Positions 437 through 40,145 of a DNA stretch of 41,317 bases are shown here, piece by piece. This stretch comes from a virus. The notes below the pieces were generated by a model. The model searched no databases. It saw nothing but the letters and a program-made list of their open reading frames with translations, and was not told where the DNA came from. Within the stretch, counting starts at the first letter, position 1, and each line of letters begins with the position of its first letter. The position numbers were made by a program, and so were the translations under genes. Location of the stretch: IMG/VR virus record IMGVR_UViG_3300037882_001825, positions 1 through 41,317 of that record. One strand, written 5' to 3'.

Positions 437-910
437 ATGGTAATGGGCAGGCCAAGGAAGCCGACACGCATCAAGGTAGTTGAGGGTACGGCCAGAGACG
501 ACCGGATGAACTTTCGTGAGCCGATGCCGAAGCGTGGCATCCCCAACTGCCCGTCGTTCTTGAGCAAGGCCGCGAAGAAGAAATGGAAAGAGATAGTTCC
601 CGAACTGGACCGGCTTGGCGTCATCACGTTGATTGATGGGGATGCTCTGGCCTGCTACTGCGAAGCGTGGGGGGAGTTCGAGGCGACGACGAAGATCATC
701 GCCAAGAACGGTCGGTTCACCAGCAACGCAGCAGGTACGCGAATATCACACCCTGCGGTTGCGCAACAGCGATCCGCGTGGGAAGCGATCAAGAAGTTCT
801 CTTGCATGTACGGGCTGGACCCGTCAAGCCGATCGAAGATTCAGGCGGCCCCGGTGGACAACGCCGACCCGTTCGAGCAGTTCCTTGAGAACAAGGGGGA
901 GACGGGCTAG
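437..910 (+). CDS. terS: Phage terminase small subunit, P27 family
   Basis: A 157-aa protein that opens with the basic MGRPRKPT segment typical of P27-type small terminases and continues with a helical body (about residues 40-130). It should recognise the phage packaging site and bring the large subunit to DNA. It lies between the HNH gene and the large terminase, and its TAG stop overlaps the large-subunit GTG by one base. A second in-frame ATG two codons in (443) is an equally good start. Confidence 0.85.
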   Translation: MVMGRPRKPTRIKVVEGTARDDRMNFREPMPKRGIPNCPSFLSKAAKKKWKEIVPELDRLGVITLIDGDALACYCEAWGEFEATTKIIAKNGRFTSNAAGTRISHPAVAQQRSAWEAIKKFSCMYGLDPSSRSKIQAAPVDNADPFEQFLENKGETG

Positions 911-3786
911 TGGCCACGGCATCACTTCCCGACCCTGTGACGCAATACGCCCGCGACGTGGTAGGGGGCACCATCGTCGCGGGCCGGTTAGTTCGTCTGG
1001 CCTGCGCCCGCCATCTTCACGACCTGGAACACGGGCACAAGCGCGGGCTGAAATGGGATTTGAAGGCAGTTCATCACGTCTTGAAGTTTTTCTCTTTCTT
1101 GCGGTTCTCGGACGGGGCATTCGAGGGCAAGCCTTTTATTCCGCAGCCCTTTCAGGCGTTCATCATCGGCAGCATTTTTGGCTGGAAGAATGCGGACGGG
1201 TACAGGCGATACAGGACCGGCTACGTCGAGCGCGGGAAAGGGTCTGGAAAGACCCCGGAAGCAGCAGCGATAGGCTTGTATTGCATGATCGCCGATGGTG
1301 AGGGGAGCGCGGAATGCTTCAGTGCTGCGACTGCACAGCATCAGGCGGCTATTTGCTTCCGTGACGCCAAGTTGTTTGCCCAGAACTCGCCGTCCTTGTC
1401 GAACCGAATCACGATCGGGCAGGCCAACCTTGGCTATGAAGCGAAGAACTCTTTCTTTCGTCCGGTGTCGGCTGAACATCGCGGCCTGGATGGCAAGCGC
1501 CCCCATTGTGCGATTGTCGATGAGTTGCATGAGCATCCCAACGACCTCGTGGTAGAGAAGATGCGAGCAGGGACCAAGGGGCGTCGTCAGGCGATTCAGT
1601 ACGAAATCACCAACAGCGGGCACGACCGAACCTCTGTTTGCTGGGCGCACCGCGAGTACAGCGTCAAGATCCTTGAAGGCTTCGATCAGGACGACGGGGC
1701 AAAGGATGACGCATGGTTCGCCTACGTTTGTCAACTCGACGCTTGCGAAGTCTGCCGGAACGAAGGTAAGACGATGCCGACGGACGGGTGTTCCGAGTGC
1801 GACCAGTGGGACGACGAGAAGGTTTGGATCAAGGCCAACCCCGGTCTTGGAACGATCCTTCCCATCGAGTATCTTCGCGGGCAGGTCCGCGAAGCGAAGG
1901 GCATGCCGTCGAAAGAGAACCTCGTCAAGCGGCTCAACTTCTGCTGCTGGTGCGTGACGCCAAACACCCTGATAACGATGGCCAACGGGGGCAGGAAACG
2001 AGCAGACCAGTTGCAAATTGGTGACAGAATCATCGCGTTTGATGAGGCAATTGGGTCGCTCGTTATCACAACAGTCAAAGCGGTTGCCGACAACGGTGTT
2101 CAGTCTGTCTTTAAGATCACAACTGCTCGCGGAAGAGTAATCACTGTAACAGGCAATCACCGATTTTGGAGTCGATACGGCAGGACGGATAACCCCAAAT
2201 ACGGATGGGTTGAAGCTGAAAAACTTCAACCTGGCTCTCGAGTTGCCGTTGCTCTCGGAGGGGCAGAGACAGAGTCACAATCCGCAATGGATCGTAGCGA
2301 AGCCTATTTACTTGGAGCGATGGCTGGAGACGGAACTTGCCGCCTCAAGAATCTTCGTTTCACAAACAGGGAACCTGCTCTTGTCGCGGCTTGTAACGAA
2401 ATTATGAAACCGCACGGTTGTGAATTTGCAACTCAGCCAAACGGCAAATATCACCATCACAGAAATATCGTCCGTCAACCCTGGGGGTCGGGATCTTGGC
2501 TCAAGAGATTGTTGCTAAAGCATCGGATGTCGGGGAAGAACTGCTACAACAAGCGAGTGCCTGAGCAGGTAATGACGGGCGGCCCTGAAGCATGGGAAGG
2601 GTTTCTTTCTGGCTATCTTGACACAGATGGATACGTTCTCAAAGGCATTGTGGCGTGGTGCAGTATCAATCACGATCTTCTGAGCGATTGTCAGCATTTG
2701 CTTGCACTACTCGGCGTGCAATCGTCACTAAATTCTGTAGACAATGAGAAGTGCCGAGAACCTTTTTGGCGACTCGAAGTAAGAGATAAGCGATCTCTTA
2801 GCGTTCTTGTTCATTTGCTCAAGCCATCGCACCCGCACAAGGCAAGGAAACTGACTCAACTCGATTTGGTTAATTACCGATGTGGAAACGGCCCTTGTCC
2901 GCAAGATGTTTCTAAATTTGATCGTATCGTTAGCGTCGAGCAACTTCCTCCAACTCAAACGCTTGGAATTGAAGTCAATGACGTTCATACGCACGTCACC
3001 AATGGGTTCATTACCCACAATACCGCAACGGAAACGCGAGCAATCCCGATGGACAAGTGGGATTGCTGCAAGCGAGATGTGGACTACGCGAAGTTGCTTG
3101 GACGCGACTGTTACGGCGGTCTGGACATTGGGGCAACGTCGGACTTTACCGCCTTCTCGCTGGTGTTTCCGCACGACGACGTGGAACACGTCGAAGTGCC
3201 GATTGATATTCGAGAACCACAGGGACACAAGCGATCATTGGCCCGCCGCTCGTTTACGCTGCTGTCGTGGTTCTGGCTGCCGGAACATCCGCGCAAACGC
3301 GGCGAGCGGGAGACTCGCCAGATCGACACATGGCGGCGAATGGGACTGGTACGGACGACGCCGGGCGAGGTGGTCGATTACGACCTCGTGCTGGAGGATA
3401 TTGTCGCCATTTGCAGCGACTACAGCCTGTGCTGCATCGGCTTCGATCGAGGATTTCAGGGGTCGCAGATGGGCAACAACCTGCTGAACCACTACGGCGA
3501 GCGCATGGTGAGAGAGTTCCCGCAGGGTATAATTTCCATGAATGCCCCATTTCGAGAGTTTCTCGAACTGATTATTCTTGGTCGGCTTCACCACGACGGC
3601 AATGCCGTGTTGCGGTGGATGGCGAGCAATACGGCGGCAGAAATTCGTGGCGGATTGATGAAGCCGAGCAAGGACAAAAGTGCCGAGAAGATTGACGGGA
3701 TCGTAAGCGCCGTGATGGGGCTGGGGGTAGCGATGGTAGGGGACGGCGAAACCAGTTGGTACACTCCAGGGGTATTGAGCAACTGA
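910..3786 (+). CDS. terL: Phage terminase large subunit interrupted by an intein
   Basis: The 958-aa precursor contains about 601 aa of terminase. The ATPase half has a Walker A, GKGSGKT (residues 109-115), and a Walker B ending in acidic residues (IVDE, 202-205). The nuclease half has D739 in GGLDIGATSDF and D929 in KIDGIVSA as likely metal ligands. Residues 348-704 are an intein placed right after the conserved NFCCW segment that links the two domains, so splicing is needed to make a continuous motor. GTG start at 910 overlaps the terS stop. It should power DNA entry into the prohead through the portal and cut concatemers. Confidence 0.93.
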   Translation: MATASLPDPVTQYARDVVGGTIVAGRLVRLACARHLHDLEHGHKRGLKWDLKAVHHVLKFFSFLRFSDGAFEGKPFIPQPFQAFIIGSIFGWKNADGYRRYRTGYVERGKGSGKTPEAAAIGLYCMIADGEGSAECFSAATAQHQAAICFRDAKLFAQNSPSLSNRITIGQANLGYEAKNSFFRPVSAEHRGLDGKRPHCAIVDELHEHPNDLVVEKMRAGTKGRRQAIQYEITNSGHDRTSVCWAHREYSVKILEGFDQDDGAKDDAWFAYVCQLDACEVCRNEGKTMPTDGCSECDQWDDEKVWIKANPGLGTILPIEYLRGQVREAKGMPSKENLVKRLNFCCWCVTPNTLITMANGGRKRADQLQIGDRIIAFDEAIGSLVITTVKAVADNGVQSVFKITTARGRVITVTGNHRFWSRYGRTDNPKYGWVEAEKLQPGSRVAVALGGAETESQSAMDRSEAYLLGAMAGDGTCRLKNLRFTNREPALVAACNEIMKPHGCEFATQPNGKYHHHRNIVRQPWGSGSWLKRLLLKHRMSGKNCYNKRVPEQVMTGGPEAWEGFLSGYLDTDGYVLKGIVAWCSINHDLLSDCQHLLALLGVQSSLNSVDNEKCREPFWRLEVRDKRSLSVLVHLLKPSHPHKARKLTQLDLVNYRCGNGPCPQDVSKFDRIVSVEQLPPTQTLGIEVNDVHTHVTNGFITHNTATETRAIPMDKWDCCKRDVDYAKLLGRDCYGGLDIGATSDFTAFSLVFPHDDVEHVEVPIDIREPQGHKRSLARRSFTLLSWFWLPEHPRKRGERETRQIDTWRRMGLVRTTPGEVVDYDLVLEDIVAICSDYSLCCIGFDRGFQGSQMGNNLLNHYGERMVREFPQGIISMNAPFREFLELIILGRLHHDGNAVLRWMASNTAAEIRGGLMKPSKDKSAEKIDGIVSAVMGLGVAMVGDGETSWYTPGVLSN
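1951..3021 (+). other. Intein with LAGLIDADG homing endonuclease inside terL
   Basis: A 357-aa in-frame insertion. It begins with Cys (CVTPNTLIT, splicing block A) and ends in VTNGFITHN, with terminal His-Asn, followed by Thr as the +1 extein residue. A block-B-like GNHRFW stretch follows about 70 aa in. Two LAGLIDADG motifs are visible: LLGAMAGDG (467-475) and FLSGYLDTDG (565-574). Both catalytic acids are present, so the endonuclease looks intact. Base composition appears more AT-rich than the flanking terminase, consistent with later arrival. A Cys/Thr junction pair is a known combination for class 1 inteins. Confidence 0.95.
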
Positions 3787-10453: not shown

Positions 10454-10663
10454 GTGGCTGTGACGAAGTTTGACCACAAACAAGCCTGTGCTCCTCCTCC
10501 GGTGGATCGCCGCCAGTCGGCTATCGAAGCACTGGCCCGCGACATCTACCTGCGCATGGTGACGGGACCGGCAGGGCAAAGCAAAACGCTCGTGGCGCTT
10601 GCCGAAATGGCACGCACGCAAGCCAAAGCCTTCTACGACACTGAACCAACAATCGAGGGCTAA
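10454..10663 (+). CDS. Hypothetical small helical protein
   Basis: A 69-aa protein with a GTG start preceded by AGGAG. Residues 18-62 form a predicted continuous helix with regular Ala/Leu spacing (AIEALARDIYLRM, then LVALAEMARTQAKAFYD). It is placed in the head gene run; function unknown. Confidence 0.55.
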   Translation: MAVTKFDHKQACAPPPVDRRQSAIEALARDIYLRMVTGPAGQSKTLVALAEMARTQAKAFYDTEPTIEG

Positions 10664-10665
10664 AC

Positions 10666-11595
10666 ATGCCTCGCACGAGCATTCCGCAAGCCGGTGGTAA
10701 TCGCAAAGTCGCAGAGCACAACCTGTACGACTTCCGCGCCCTGATACCCGCCAGTACGGGCAACATTTTCTTCGTGGACTCGGCACAGACCTCCGGTTCC
10801 GGGCTGTCTCCCGAAGATCCTGTTTCGACCATCGACGCAGCGATCAACCTTTGCACGGCCTCCAATGGTGACATCATCGTCGTGATGGAAGGCCATTCGG
10901 AAACCATCTCCACGGCTGGTGCGATTGCGATGGACGTGGTTGGCGTGTCCATCATCGGGCTTGGACATGGGGCGTCTGTTCCGCTTGTTACCTTCAGCGA
11001 AACGGATGCAACGTGGGACATCAGCGCGGCAGATTGCCTGGTCAAGAACATTCGCGTGACGAGTTCAGTCAACGAACTGGTGACAATGTTCAGCGTCACT
11101 GCGGCCAATGTCACCATCGACGCCGTGAACTACGTCGATCCGGGGGCGGCCCTGGAAACGCTCCAGTTCCTTCTGACGACGAATGCTGCCGACTACCTGA
11201 CCATCAAGAACTGTCATCACGTTGCCTCGACCGCTGGGGCGAGCGCCCAGAAGTGGATCAGTCTGATCGGCGTGGAAGCCCCGCGCATTCTCGATTGCAC
11301 GTTCATTCTGGCTTTGTTCGACCATGCAACGACGGCGACCATTTCCGGGGATGCCAGCGTGCGACGCGCCGAAATCGGTCGCGTCCGCTGTCATCAGACC
11401 GGGTACTCATCGGCGATTGTGTCCGTGTTCCTGATTGCTTCGGGCGGCACGGGCATGACCTACGATTGCCGTTTGTACGCCGACACGGCGGCTCTGACCA
11501 CGATCAACGATTGTCCGACGTTTGCTCATTTCGAGAGCTACGTCAGCAACGACCTGGACAAGAACGGCATCATCGACCCCACGGTGGCAAGCTAA
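10666..11595 (+). CDS. Beta-helix-like structural protein (decoration or fibre)
   Basis: A 309-aa protein. The start of the domain, FVDSAQTSGSGLSPEDPVSTIDAA (about residues 36-60), matches the entry pattern of right-handed parallel beta-helix proteins, and the remaining 220 residues are regularly spaced short beta-strands with conserved Asn/Asp turns (NIRVTSS, DAVNYVDP, TIKNCHH, RILDCTF). No catalytic residues of polysaccharide lyases can be assigned. In the capsid neighbourhood it is more likely a capsid decoration or vertex protein than a tailspike, but that is inference. Confidence 0.6.
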   Translation: MPRTSIPQAGGNRKVAEHNLYDFRALIPASTGNIFFVDSAQTSGSGLSPEDPVSTIDAAINLCTASNGDIIVVMEGHSETISTAGAIAMDVVGVSIIGLGHGASVPLVTFSETDATWDISAADCLVKNIRVTSSVNELVTMFSVTAANVTIDAVNYVDPGAALETLQFLLTTNAADYLTIKNCHHVASTAGASAQKWISLIGVEAPRILDCTFILALFDHATTATISGDASVRRAEIGRVRCHQTGYSSAIVSVFLIASGGTGMTYDCRLYADTAALTTINDCPTFAHFESYVSNDLDKNGIIDPTVAS

Positions 11596-36996: not shown

Positions 36997-37440
36997 ATGC
37001 GAACCGTACACACGCATCTGCGCTGGATGATCCGTGCGGACCTGCACACGCTCGTCCCCATCGACGCGGCGAGTCATCCCGACCCGTGGGATTACGACAA
37101 AATTACGTCAGAATTGCGTCACAATAACGTCATCGGCATGACTGCCGAAATGGACGGCGACCCGGTTGGCTACGCGCTGTACCGGCTCGATCGCTGTCAT
37201 ATCGAGATCCTGCGGATTGCCGTTGCCCCGGCCTTGCGGCGCTGCGGGATTGGCTCGCAGATGACGGCGAAACTCATGAGCAAGGTCAACGCGCATCGTC
37301 GCTGCTGGTTGTCGATGCGGGTGAGAGAGACGAACATCGCCGGCCAGCGGTTCCTTCTCTCGCGTGGGTTCGTGGTGCTGGGCATCCTGCGCGAGTTCTA
37401 CGGCTCTGAGGACGGCATCGTGTGGCAGTGCGAAAAGTGA
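36997..37440 (+). CDS. GNAT-family N-acetyltransferase
   Basis: A 147-aa protein resembling RimI-type acetyltransferases. Motif A, VAPALRRCGIGSQM (about residues 73-86), is the acetyl-CoA pyrophosphate-binding loop; strands ALYRLDRCHIEILRI before and WLSMRVRETNIAGQRFLLSRGF after complete the fold. It probably acetylates a protein N-terminus or small molecule. Whether it modifies host, rival or phage proteins is unknown. The first TIGR-like unit begins 6 nt after its stop. Confidence 0.8.
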   Translation: MRTVHTHLRWMIRADLHTLVPIDAASHPDPWDYDKITSELRHNNVIGMTAEMDGDPVGYALYRLDRCHIEILRIAVAPALRRCGIGSQMTAKLMSKVNAHRRCWLSMRVRETNIAGQRFLLSRGFVVLGILREFYGSEDGIVWQCEK

Positions 37441-37445
37441 AACTT

Positions 37446-37717
37446 TGTGCGGGCGAGTCCTGGCATGAAACCGAGGCATGACGTGCCCGCACATTTTGAC
37501 CAGCGTGGCGAGACATCAAGTGAAACCGAGTCATTGCCTTGCCACGCATTTTTGAGCCTTGTGCGGGCGAAAGGAACCGTGAAACCGATGCCGCCCTTGC
37601 CCGCACATTTTGGCCAGCGTGGCGAGAGACCCTGTGAAACCGAGTAGATTTCTGCCACGCATTTTGACCCTGTGTACTGGCGGGTGTGGACCTGAAACCG
37701 AGTGCGATATTGCCAGT
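37446..37717 (+). repeat. TIGR-like dual-guide RNA array, block 1 (5 units)
   Basis: Five units at 37446-37493, 37503-37547, 37560-37607, 37617-37660 and 37676-37717. Each has a stem ending GGC, GA (GG in unit 5), 9 variable nt (A), TGAAACCGA, 9 variable nt (B), T or TT, then GCC and the complementary stem. Stems: TGTGCGGGC, GCGTGGC, TGTGCGGGC, GCGTGGC, ACTGGC. A/B pairs: gtcctggca/ggcatgacg, gacatcaag/gtcattgcc, aaggaaccg/tgccgccct, gagaccctg/gtagatttc, gtgtggacc/gtgcgatat. Linkers are close to ATTTTGACC. The GA, TGA and CGA elements recall box C/D kink-turn pieces. No ORF is credible here. Confidence 0.85.
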
Positions 37718-37740
37718 TTTTCCCAAAGGAGACGAATCAA

Positions 37741-38253
37741 GTGGACTATCCAGCCGAAGTGTTGACCATCGTGAAAATGGCCGTGCAGAAGCACAGCGAC
37801 CCCGCCGAGGCCGTCGCACAGGCAGAGCGACAGATACGCGCCCTGCCCACGTTCGCCAGCCTGTTCGACACGCTCGTTCGGTCGGCAGTGACGGAACTGG
37901 TCTACGATCATCGGCACCTCGCCAACGTCGCCATGAGGCGGCAGGCTGGGCAGTACGGCAAGCCGGGCAAAGTCGTCGTGGGGGCGTCGGAGTCTGTGAA
38001 CAAGGTGTACGAGTCCTACTACCGCTATCGCATCGGGGCAACCATGCTGGGCAACCTGACGGGCGCGGAGTTGCTCGTTGTGGCGCAGACGGAACGGGCG
38101 TTGGCTGGCGGACACCTGTTCAACGCCCGGCTGTGCGAAGAACTCGGCGTGCTGGTGCCCGAAGAGAAGGCCGTGCAGGACGTGGTGAGCGAGAAGAGGC
38201 TGCGGGCACTCTTCGAGAAGCTGGCCGGAAAAGAGGGCGTTGAGGCGGCGTGA
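37741..38253 (+). CDS. Hypothetical protein embedded in the TIGR-like locus
   Basis: A 170-aa helical protein between array blocks 1 and 2. GTG start with AAAGGAG 9 nt upstream. It contains a basic middle segment (MRRQAGQYGKPGKVVVGASESVNKVYESYYRYRIG, about residues 66-100) that could contact RNA or DNA, and an acidic/Leu-rich end. No family is recognised. Its location, enclosed by guide-like arrays, makes it a candidate accessory component. Confidence 0.6.
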   Translation: MDYPAEVLTIVKMAVQKHSDPAEAVAQAERQIRALPTFASLFDTLVRSAVTELVYDHRHLANVAMRRQAGQYGKPGKVVVGASESVNKVYESYYRYRIGATMLGNLTGAELLVVAQTERALAGGHLFNARLCEELGVLVPEEKAVQDVVSEKRLRALFEKLAGKEGVEAA

Positions 38254-38260
38254 CGAATCT

Positions 38261-38699
38261 GTGCGGGGCGAAACCGGCCATGGAGCCGATGCCACTGTTG
38301 CCCCGCACTCAATCAACGCCTGACGAGAGGAGAATTGAAACCGTGCGTAGGGGTGTCAGGCGGTGAAACAACCCGGCGAAAGGCCGTTTGGAACCGTGAG
38401 TGGTGGTGCCGGGCCAAAACATCAGCGGCGAACGATGGCATGAAACCGAGAGCACGAGTGCCGCTGTGAAACGAACGCGGGCGAATGAAACAGTGAAACC
38501 GAGGCTGCTGTTGCCCGCGACCGAAACAACCTGAATCTTGTGCGGTGGCGAGCATGGATGTGAACCCGAGCGAAAACCTTGTCCCGCACATGAACCAACG
38601 CGCCGAACGAAGTCATGAAATCGTGTAGTCGATTGGCGCGTACGAAACATCCGGCTGGCGAGCTGGACGATGAAACCGAATTCGCTTCTGCCAGCCGGA
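38261..38699 (+). repeat. TIGR-like dual-guide RNA array, block 2 (8 units)
   Basis: Units at 38261-38308, 38318-38361, 38372-38413, 38423-38466, 38476-38519, 38539-38590, 38598-38641 and 38650-38699. Core variants are TGGAGCCGA, TGAAACCGT, TGGAACCGT, TGAAACCGA (x3), TGAACCCGA and TGAAATCGT. A/B pairs: aaccggcca/tgccactgt, gaggagaat/gcgtagggg, aaggccgtt/gagtggtgg, acgatggca/gagcacgag, atgaaacag/ggctgctgt, gcatggatg/gcgaaaacc, acgaagtca/gtagtcgat, gctggacga/attcgcttc. Stems (for example CAGCGGC, CGCGGGC, CGCGCC, TCCGGCTGGC) all differ yet pair with their partners. Linkers often contain GAAACAAC. Confidence 0.85.
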
Positions 38700-38717
38700 C
38701 CAACCTGGAGAGAAACC

Positions 38718-39527
38718 ATGATAGCGACAGAGACAACACCGACCGCGAAAATCTGTGCCGACCTGCAAGACCAGCAGCGTCAACGCTCCGTCATTCTGAA
38801 ATCAAGAAACATGCAGGCCAATCGCCTTCAGGCCATCGTGGCCGGCACGCTGGGCTATTCGTCCGGCATGGACGAAAAAGAGCGGCTGAAGAAATTCACC
38901 GAGGCGTCGGCGCTCATCAAGGAAGTCGTCGCCGGCACGAAGCGAGTGCCGATGGCTCCCGTCATTCGCACGACGCATATCGGTATCGAAGCGTTCGAGA
39001 CGCTCAAGGACGACCTGGAAAAACAGATGGTCAAACTGGTCAAGAAACTGCCATCGGCGGCGTGGGTGAGTGAGCCGGAGCAACGCGGCTTCGGCCTGCT
39101 GTTCCTGGCGATTGTTGTCGGCGAGTGTGGCGACCTGTGCGGCTACGCCAACCCCGGCAAGCTGTGGCGGCGTCTGGGCTGTGCGCCGTGGACGTTCGGC
39201 GGCAAAACAGCGATGGGGGCAACGTGGCGGGCAGGGAAAGAAGGCAAGTTGCCAGCCGACGAGTGGTCGCAGTTCGGCTACTCGCCGCGTAGGAGATCCA
39301 TCGCGTTCCTCATCGGCGAAGGCATCGTGAAGCAGAATGGCAGTGGCCCGTATCGGGCACGCTACGATGCGACGAAGGTGATGGCGCTCGAGAAACACGC
39401 AGATTGGAAACCGCTTCGTTGCCATCGCCACGCGATGCTGCTGGCCACGAAGATGCTGCTGAAGCAACTGTGGATCGACTGGCGCAGGCGTGCGGGCGAT
39501 TTGCCCGCCGATGCCTGGCAGGGCTGA
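38718..39527 (+). CDS. TasA-like protein: Nop/IS110-type RNA-binding domain, no nuclease
   Basis: A 269-aa protein. Residues 1-115 are helical (coiled-coil-like). Residues 118-258 resemble the C-terminal domain of IS110 transposases and the related Nop domain: EQRGFGLLFLAIVVGECGDLCGYANPGKLWRRLGCAPW (121-158), a basic loop, then helices to RHAMLLATKMLLKQLW (237-252). No DEDD/RuvC or HNH motif is present, and the IS110 Ser-Gly site is replaced by FGGK (160-163). Set between arrays of dual 9-nt-guide repeats, it fits the Nop-only Tas class, which would bind the guide RNAs. ATG 38718 follows GGAGAGAAACC. A decayed IS110 transposase is the alternative, but the matching array argues against it. Confidence 0.75.
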   Translation: MIATETTPTAKICADLQDQQRQRSVILKSRNMQANRLQAIVAGTLGYSSGMDEKERLKKFTEASALIKEVVAGTKRVPMAPVIRTTHIGIEAFETLKDDLEKQMVKLVKKLPSAAWVSEPEQRGFGLLFLAIVVGECGDLCGYANPGKLWRRLGCAPWTFGGKTAMGATWRAGKEGKLPADEWSQFGYSPRRRSIAFLIGEGIVKQNGSGPYRARYDATKVMALEKHADWKPLRCHRHAMLLATKMLLKQLWIDWRRRAGDLPADAWQG

Positions 39528-39532
39528 ATCAT

Positions 39533-39796
39533 GGGGCTGGCAAAAAACGCGTTGAAACCGACAGTTGGAGTGCCAGCCCCTTGAGCCATGACCGGCGATG
39601 ACGCTCGTGAAACCGAGGCCAGGCGTGCCGGTCTTGAAACAACACCTGACGATTGCTCCATTGCAACCGATGGCGATACTGTCAGGTGAGAAATTGCGTG
39701 GGCGAGGGTTCTATTGAAACCGAGTGTTTGGGTGCCCCCGCAATGAACGTTGAGCGGCGATACAGCAAGTGAAACCCGAATGGCAAACTGCCGCTC
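39533..39796 (+). repeat. TIGR-like dual-guide RNA array, block 3 (5 units)
   Basis: Units at 39533-39580, 39590-39633, 39643-39688, 39694-39743 and 39752-39796, starting 6 nt after the TasA-like stop. Stems: GGGGCTGGC, GACCGGC, CACCTGAC, TTGCGTGGGC (one mismatch), GAGCGGC. Cores: TGAAACCGA (x3), TGCAACCGA and TGAAACCCGA. A/B pairs: aaaacgcgt/cagttggag, tgacgctcg/ggccaggcg, ttgctccat/tggcgatac, gggttctat/gtgtttggg, tacagcaag/atggcaaac. The last unit is followed by about 65 nt without recognised structure before the next gene. Confidence 0.85.
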
Positions 39797-39862
39797 TCGA
39801 TAGACGCGACGTGATCCTGCCAGCCGCACCCGCAGCAGCGGTGGCGAACGGACGGAGCCAAA

Positions 39863-40111
39863 ATGGACCTGCGCGACTGGACATTACCGGGGCCAAGCTC
39901 ACTGCAACTGGACCTTGCAGACCTCGCCAAGTTTTTCTCGGTGTCGCAGGACACGATATGGCGCTGGATCGAAAAGGGTCAGTTTCCCTGCGGACTGATT
40001 CACGGCGGCAAGCCGACCTGGACAGGGGCAGAGATTGCGGCAGCGATCCTATTGCGAGGACGCTACTCCTCGAATGAAGGAAAACCGGAGCCGCAAACAG
40101 ACGCAAACTGA
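39863..40111 (+). CDS. Helix-turn-helix DNA-binding protein, AlpA-like
   Basis: An 82-aa protein. Residues 16-66 form a MerR/AlpA-type winged helix: LDLADLAKFFSVSQDTIWRWIEKGQFPCGLIHGGKPTWTGAEIAAAIL. The gene end overlaps the first iteron-like repeat (40098). It may bind those repeats. It directly follows array block 3, so control of the array or of the downstream replication genes is possible. Confidence 0.65.
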   Translation: MDLRDWTLPGPSSLQLDLADLAKFFSVSQDTIWRWIEKGQFPCGLIHGGKPTWTGAEIAAAILLRGRYSSNEGKPEPQTDAN

Positions 40112-40145
40112 GGGCAAACAGACGCAAACAGACGCATTTAGACGC
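40098..40145 (+). repeat. Iteron-like direct repeats
   Basis: CAGACGC at 40098-40104, 40119-40125 and 40129-40135, and TAGACGC at 40139-40145, mostly in the wider context GCAAACAGACGCAAA. Steps of 21, 10 and 10 nt put all sites on one helix face. Such phased repeats are typical of replication-initiator or regulator binding. No gene is supported from 40112 to 40219. Confidence 0.65.

Follow-up and report, generated by a model that had tools for sequence, protein, structure and literature searches.

A probable two-gene stem-loop TIGR-Tas locus in a temperate phage, with divergence confined to the guides of duplicated units

How does an array of short guide RNAs come by new guides, and what is such an array for when the protein beside it carries no nuclease? 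Tandem interspaced guide RNA (TIGR)-Tas systems are the most recently recognised class of RNA-guided DNA-targeting systems, and the paper that described them left open both how the arrays gain guides and what the nuclease-less Tas proteins do (Faure et al. 2025, PMC12045711). Both questions are raised by a locus in virus record IMGVR_UViG_3300037882_001825, of which positions 1 to 41,317 were analysed (the window). The record is that of a temperate tailed phage, with terminase, portal, major head and tape measure genes and an integrase gene on the minus strand. Eighteen hairpin units, all on the plus strand between 37445 and 39799, stand in three blocks of five, eight and five around two genes; the first block precedes the gene at 37741-38253, the second lies between this gene and the one at 38718-39527, and the third follows the latter. 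We propose that this module is very probably a two-gene version of the stem-loop TIGR-TasA system, carried by a temperate phage, a reading that draws on the anatomy of the units, the covariation of their stems, the fold of the Tas protein, its linkage to a partner gene, and divergence restricted to the guides. A first-pass annotation of the sequence had counted 18 units within 37446-39796, and the covariance model described below returns all of them, in three blocks. The features of the module are as follows.

37445..37721, plus strand: block 1, five stem-loop guide units (cores at 37452, 37507, 37566, 37621 and 37679), found by covariance model and by motif and stem scan
37445..37645, plus strand: 114-bp duplication of two units (units 1+2 and 3+4), found by comparing framework and guides
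37741..38253, plus strand: partner gene, 170 amino acids, GTG start, ribosome site AAAGGAG; homologues lie directly upstream of tas
38260..38699, plus strand: block 2, eight guide units (cores at 38267, 38322, 38375, 38427, 38480, 38547, 38602 and 38657), found by motif/stem scan and covariance model
38718..39527, plus strand: predicted tas gene, 269-amino-acid Nop-domain protein of TasA type, by profile and fold
39532..39799, plus strand: block 3, five guide units (cores at 39539, 39594, 39648, 39701 and 39756), found by motif/stem scan and covariance model

The hairpin units are genuine. A covariance model trained on 55 units, 16 of them from the window, recovers exactly the 18 units, 17 at an expectation value (E) below 1e-4 and the unit at 38540-38589 at E 0.09; it matches nothing on the minus strand of the window, and elsewhere on the window it gives one weak match that is not a unit (E 0.66). 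Since the model includes window units, we take as independent support a scan blind to the stems, for CGA-N9-TGAAACCGA-N9-TG with at most two changes, which returned 17 matches in this 3-kb region and none in the rest of the window or on its minus strand. Folded one at a time, the units form stable hairpins (z -2.3 to -5.4). Pairing in the window reaches 6.0 of the 7 outer stem positions, as against 3.9 when the 3' arms are re-dealt among units, the highest value in 2000 deals being 5.0. Over the 55 units, 90.3% of cells are standard pairs as against 63.7% after shuffling, double changes number 141 as against 45 in shuffles, and sliding the register lowers pairing to 34-42%. Compensatory changes are visible within block 2 in units 38322 and 38602 (GAC/GTC, GCC/GGC). 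The stems differ from unit to unit with such changes, so that the constant edge repeat of dual-repeat TIGR arrays is absent. An Rfam search of the units matched no known RNA family.

Each unit follows the plan stem-GGC/GA-N9-TGAAACCGA-N9-TG/CC-stem. The first-pass annotation had recognised this shared plan and had set a T apart after the second variable segment; the plan held, and the conserved T instead groups with the next G as a TG box, which leaves both guides at 9 nt between CGA and TG. Direct reading of the sequence gives three exceptions: a second guide of 10 nt in unit 37507, a 10-nt guide together with a bulged T in the stem in unit 38547, and a 10-nt loop, TGAAACCCGA, in unit 39756. 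A box C (CGA) precedes each guide and a box D (TG) follows each; both boxes thus occur at the stem and again in the loop repeat (TG-NNNN-CGA), in the same register at both places, and at both the G of TG can pair with the C of CGA, the stem case being the innermost stem pair. Read in the light of the TasR structure (PMC12045711), these doubled boxes are what a symmetric Tas dimer would need. Box C is CGA at edge and loop in the window clade and CCA at both in distant loci (L044, L045, L049, L066 and L067; L numbers denote loci); the Rhizobium phage locus L012 has CG for box D, again in both positions. The letters thus switch jointly at the stem side and the loop side between clades, as in stem-loop TIGR-Tas arrays; the CGA of the window clade against the CCA of the wider clade, changed together at edge and loop, appears to be new here. 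A 30-nt loop is much commoner than the odd lengths on either side of it (164 hairpins, as against 22 at 29 nt and 47 at 31 nt), and we read the raised even lengths above 30 as mostly the same hairpins with inner pairs open. A scan for hairpins with 30-nt loops found no clear array at L037, L038, L041, L046, L047, L055, L058, L062 or L068.

The protein encoded at 38718-39527, in which an IS110/Nop-type domain had been proposed from its sequence, matches the NCBIfam model NF052498 (TIGR_Tas) at E 2.8e-18 and the IS110 model NF033542 at E 3e-6 (26 bits, cut-off 140), the latter over profile positions 118-263 of 343 only. All eight homologues in alignment A3 match both profiles, and the top match in a PDB profile search is TasR (9mty, E 0.001). 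An AlphaFold2 model (mean predicted local distance difference test score, pLDDT, 72) has TasH as all eight of its best Foldseek matches, and VIA-align places it nearest TasR 9mty (Z 11.8), followed by TasH (Z 10-11), IS621 (Z 9.4) and Prp31/Nop5 (Z 6.5-7.6), so that the predicted fold falls among the Nop, IS110 and Tas proteins as anticipated. The alignment begins at TasR residue 111, which shows that the N-terminal nuclease part is missing, and the protein has neither a RuvC nor an HNH nuclease part. Profile and predicted fold thus identify a TasA-like Tas protein adjoining the array, as in stem-loop TIGR-Tas loci. The Tas proteins of L013, L019, L020 and L023 have an insertion with CxxCxGxG motifs, resembling a DnaJ zinc region, near the C-terminal part; in two of them there are weak matches to DnaJ and anti-TRAP models.

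The gene at 37741-38253 belongs to a mostly helical, uncharacterised family that is kept in relatives of the locus. Profiles were searched iteratively, and blind to position, against all six-frame open reading frames of the fetched loci, and the family was found in 36 loci, always upstream of tas on the same strand; in L009, for example, a homologue with 37% identity lies just upstream of tas. Seven of ten whole bacterial genomes carry one copy each, and three have no match at this threshold; a coordinate check established that the match in a Bosea genome is the copy adjoining tas. A viral scan with a five-member alignment gave only contigs already known to carry tas, and among 385 genomes of one bacterial class a full-length match occurred at the known locus only. 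In 17 genomes of the class of genome G003 (for example loci L096-L106), where no Tas was found at threshold, only the N-terminal 60-85 positions of the partner family are matched (E 1e-5 to 6e-10); a shared helical domain is possible.

Nothing convincing was found for the identity of the partner in Pfam, PHROGs, NCBIfam, a PDB profile search, Foldseek (PDB and BFVD) or VIA-align, where the best Z was 3.9; its structure model (pLDDT 79) has no fold match. TasA has been described as lacking clear protein associations, except for a ParB-like gene that accompanies dual-repeat arrays (PMC12045711). No ParB family matched the partner in Pfam, PHROGs or NCBIfam, so it is not of the TasParB-associated type, and a very remote relation to ParB is possible. 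The main text of that paper mentions no partner gene for stem-loop loci, and its supplements, or newer or subscription papers, may already describe one; its clustering of neighbourhoods at 50% identity would tend to split this family, whose members are 27-45% identical. From this linkage, which appears to be new here, the stem-loop loci look like two-gene systems. Strict linkage suggests that the partner is most likely an obligate cofactor, acting in hairpin processing or loading, or supplying the effector missing from the bare Nop protein, and the gene is a concrete candidate for the missing function of nuclease-less Tas.

Relatives of tas were found in viral contigs and bacterial genomes; among named phages there were only three distant matches (26-29% identity), and a plasmid search gave none. 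In several relatives, units lie in frame within tas itself: at 10625-10792 and 11018 in L013, 7592 in L029, 3519 in L030, and 8040 and 8112 in L031. These units share one codon phase (GGC GA. ... GAA ACC GA.; read from the translation in L030) and encode G-[DE]-...-ET-...-A, several ending at one homologous AGPYR site; the window Tas has no such insert (KQNGSGPYR). Another in-tas unit, at 10199 in L036, has a different loop, QGESAIETGPRDA, as read from the translation. Units in frame inside tas, which seem to be new here, would cut the tas message if they were processed and so would place a built-in limit on Tas, suggesting that the effector's own message could be a source of guides, with guide release tied to the shut-off of tas. 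The array of L036 (8431-11449) comprises about 36 units around partner and tas, many at a regular 45-nt period, and looks halfway to a dual-repeat array. Viral contigs L015, L017 and L026 carry this unit type, with no tas gene found in the fetched piece.

If the segments between the boxes are guides, they should vary, and they do: a scan of 16 loci or contigs for this unit type, the window included, yielded 171 units in which no guide recurs and near-matches stay at the chance level, and the first and second guides show no mutual complementarity. In the window the two-unit duplication of block 1 has 57 of 58 framework positions identical and 11 of 29 guide positions identical (Fisher p 3e-10). 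L030 has a 150-bp two-unit duplication that copies the end of tas, with 114 of 118 framework and 9 of 36 guide positions identical (p 2e-18). Duplicated blocks thus keep a framework that is 97-98% identical, with guides about as alike as expected by chance; across loci, where the flanks of two units are at least 90% identical, guide identity is 0.29, which is also the value for unrelated units. Because the copied block comprised two units, with different stems and four guides between them, one-at-a-time acquisition of the CRISPR type alone cannot explain the block; either the guides were replaced after copying or the copy was made with new guides. This pattern, which we believe to be new here, suggests guide-restricted replacement in duplicated units. 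The duplications may instead be old, with the framework under strong selection and the guides changed by ordinary point mutation, an account to which we give a little less than an even chance. Slow divergence requires no new mechanism, and the module genes examined included no recognisable Cas1/Cas2 or reverse transcriptase; against it, the linker beyond the hairpins in L030 matches the stems in conservation even though the guides differ at 27 of 36 positions, and flanks at least 90% identical accompany guides no more alike than those of unrelated units. We advance only tentatively, with the heavier weight on the other side, the broader proposal that stem-loop TIGR loci depend on two proteins, one of them from a new partner family, and have a process that swaps 9-nt guides while the framework is copied unchanged. 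If true, it would add a further natural way to write targeting sequences to CRISPR adaptation and diversity-generating retroelements, and duplicated blocks with identical frames and unrelated guides would be its direct, testable footprint.

These observations can be joined into a working model. The blocks would be transcribed together with the genes, all units being on the strand of both, and each hairpin would be released as a guide RNA, as has been demonstrated at a different stem-loop TIGR locus (PMC12045711). The hairpin would sit pseudo-symmetrically in a Tas dimer through its CGA and TG boxes and, by analogy with TasR and TasH, each 9-nt guide would pair with one strand of an 18-bp site, the two taking opposite strands. 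As Tas has no nuclease domain, the complex most likely acts by binding DNA, unwinding it and bending it, with no cut, and such binding could block transcription or replication of competing elements or tune host or phage genes. The partner would most likely serve as an obligate cofactor, in hairpin processing or loading or as the effector. The guides would change independently of the framework, a pattern that the duplications display.

Several points weigh against this interpretation. The NF052498 match scores 66.7 bits, below the curated cut-off of 100, and the AlphaFold2 model of Tas is weak at residues 141-193. Late members of the iterative partner search score weakly on their own, for which their position upstream of tas is independent support, and linkage is the sole evidence for partner function. 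Each locus was searched for its own guide pairs in four geometries with gaps of 0-2 nt, and the matches equalled those of shuffled pairs; the guide pair of unit 38657 had four exact matches in viral contigs as against eight for an order-reversed control, which we read as chance. These two target results say little about targets elsewhere, since a pair holds 18 bp of information and one pair was searched in viral contigs.

Box C/D logic and a Nop fold are common to small nucleolar ribonucleoproteins, Tas here has no nuclease part and no DNA target was found, so the hairpins might be box C/D-like guides that steer Tas, with or without the partner, to host or phage transcripts. We consider this unlikely: TasR cleaved DNA, whether single- or double-stranded, but not RNA, TasR and TasH guides pair with opposite DNA strands (PMC12045711), the Tas model resembles TasR and TasH more than it does Nop5 or Prp31, and the module and neighbour genes scanned included none recognisable as fibrillarin or L7Ae-like. 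It is more improbable still that the units are relatives of bridge RNAs that aid integration or mobility, for instance by helping the phage integrase to bend DNA. The module does lie downstream of the integrase gene, Tas matches IS110 profiles, and an RNA-guided aid to integrases was suggested in the TIGR-Tas paper (PMC12045711); Tas, however, lacks the DEDD transposase part that IS110 has at its N terminus, and eighteen different guide pairs suit many targets rather than one donor and one target.

Intergenic hairpins are frequent in phages, and the units might be terminators or elements of mRNA stability, duplicated by chance and unrelated to the Nop protein. We give this almost no credence. 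The two hypervariable segments are of fixed length and in fixed register, the boxes are doubled, the linkage to tas is constant in relatives and some units lie in frame in their tas genes, and there was no Rfam match. Terminator hairpins were ruled out as a candidate identity, no terminator-like sites being present on the plus strand.

Some neighbouring features of the phage deserve mention. Just upstream of block 1 (36997-37440) lies a gene for a RimI-like GNAT acetyltransferase (TIGR01575, E 2e-17, below cut-off). Directly after block 3, 39863-40111 encodes a small helix-turn-helix protein with excisionase-like matches (HTH_17, E 2e-6; phrog_66, E 3e-7), and beyond the module, at 40093-40142, short direct repeats (GCAAACAGACGCAAAC...) occur in three copies 10-21 bp apart and are possible binding sites. 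The gene for the terminase large subunit (910-3786) contains a probable intein, with Hint and Intein_splicing matches at residues 348-704 and a LAGLIDADG domain at 564-632, inserted between the ATPase and nuclease parts.

The module can finally be set beside the systems to which it is related. Like the box C/D ribonucleoproteins of archaea and eukaryotes (Nop5, Prp31), it has a Nop fold, box C/D logic and two guides per RNA; unlike them, it has no recognised kink-turn protein or fibrillarin, and its expected target is DNA. With the IS110 family (IS621 bridge RNA) it shares a homologous Nop-like RNA-binding region (NF033542; Z 9.4), whereas an IS110 transposase has an N-terminal DEDD domain and one bridge RNA, and here that domain is absent and there are 18 guide units. 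The dual-repeat TIGR systems with TasA, TasR or TasH (PMC12045711; PDB 9mty, 9w04) have in common with it two 9-nt guides, UG and C-type boxes that switch jointly at edge and loop, the Tas fold (Z 10-12) and a repeat-like loop segment; in contrast to those systems, the window has hairpin stems in place of edge repeats, a linker between units, no nuclease domain, and the partner gene in place of TasParB. The closest published counterpart is a contig from the gut of Peromyscus leucopus, in which stem-loop TIGR arrays accompany TasA in three sub-arrays (Faure et al. 2025, PMC12045711). Both have a Nop-only Tas, tandem hairpins, two short guides between boxes C and D, and three sub-arrays, so that the three-block layout, proposed in the first-pass annotation as a possible new variant, is not new by itself. 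The TIGR-like dual-guide arrays with a Nop-domain protein that it recognised are supported by the Tas profile, the fold and the varying guides, and the second gene that it noted, as a member of a conserved partner family, is the most novel part. Compared with the Peromyscus leucopus system, the window has this conserved partner directly upstream of tas, a box C of CGA, a fixed loop repeat (TG-NNNN-CGA), and guides that are almost always 9 nt.
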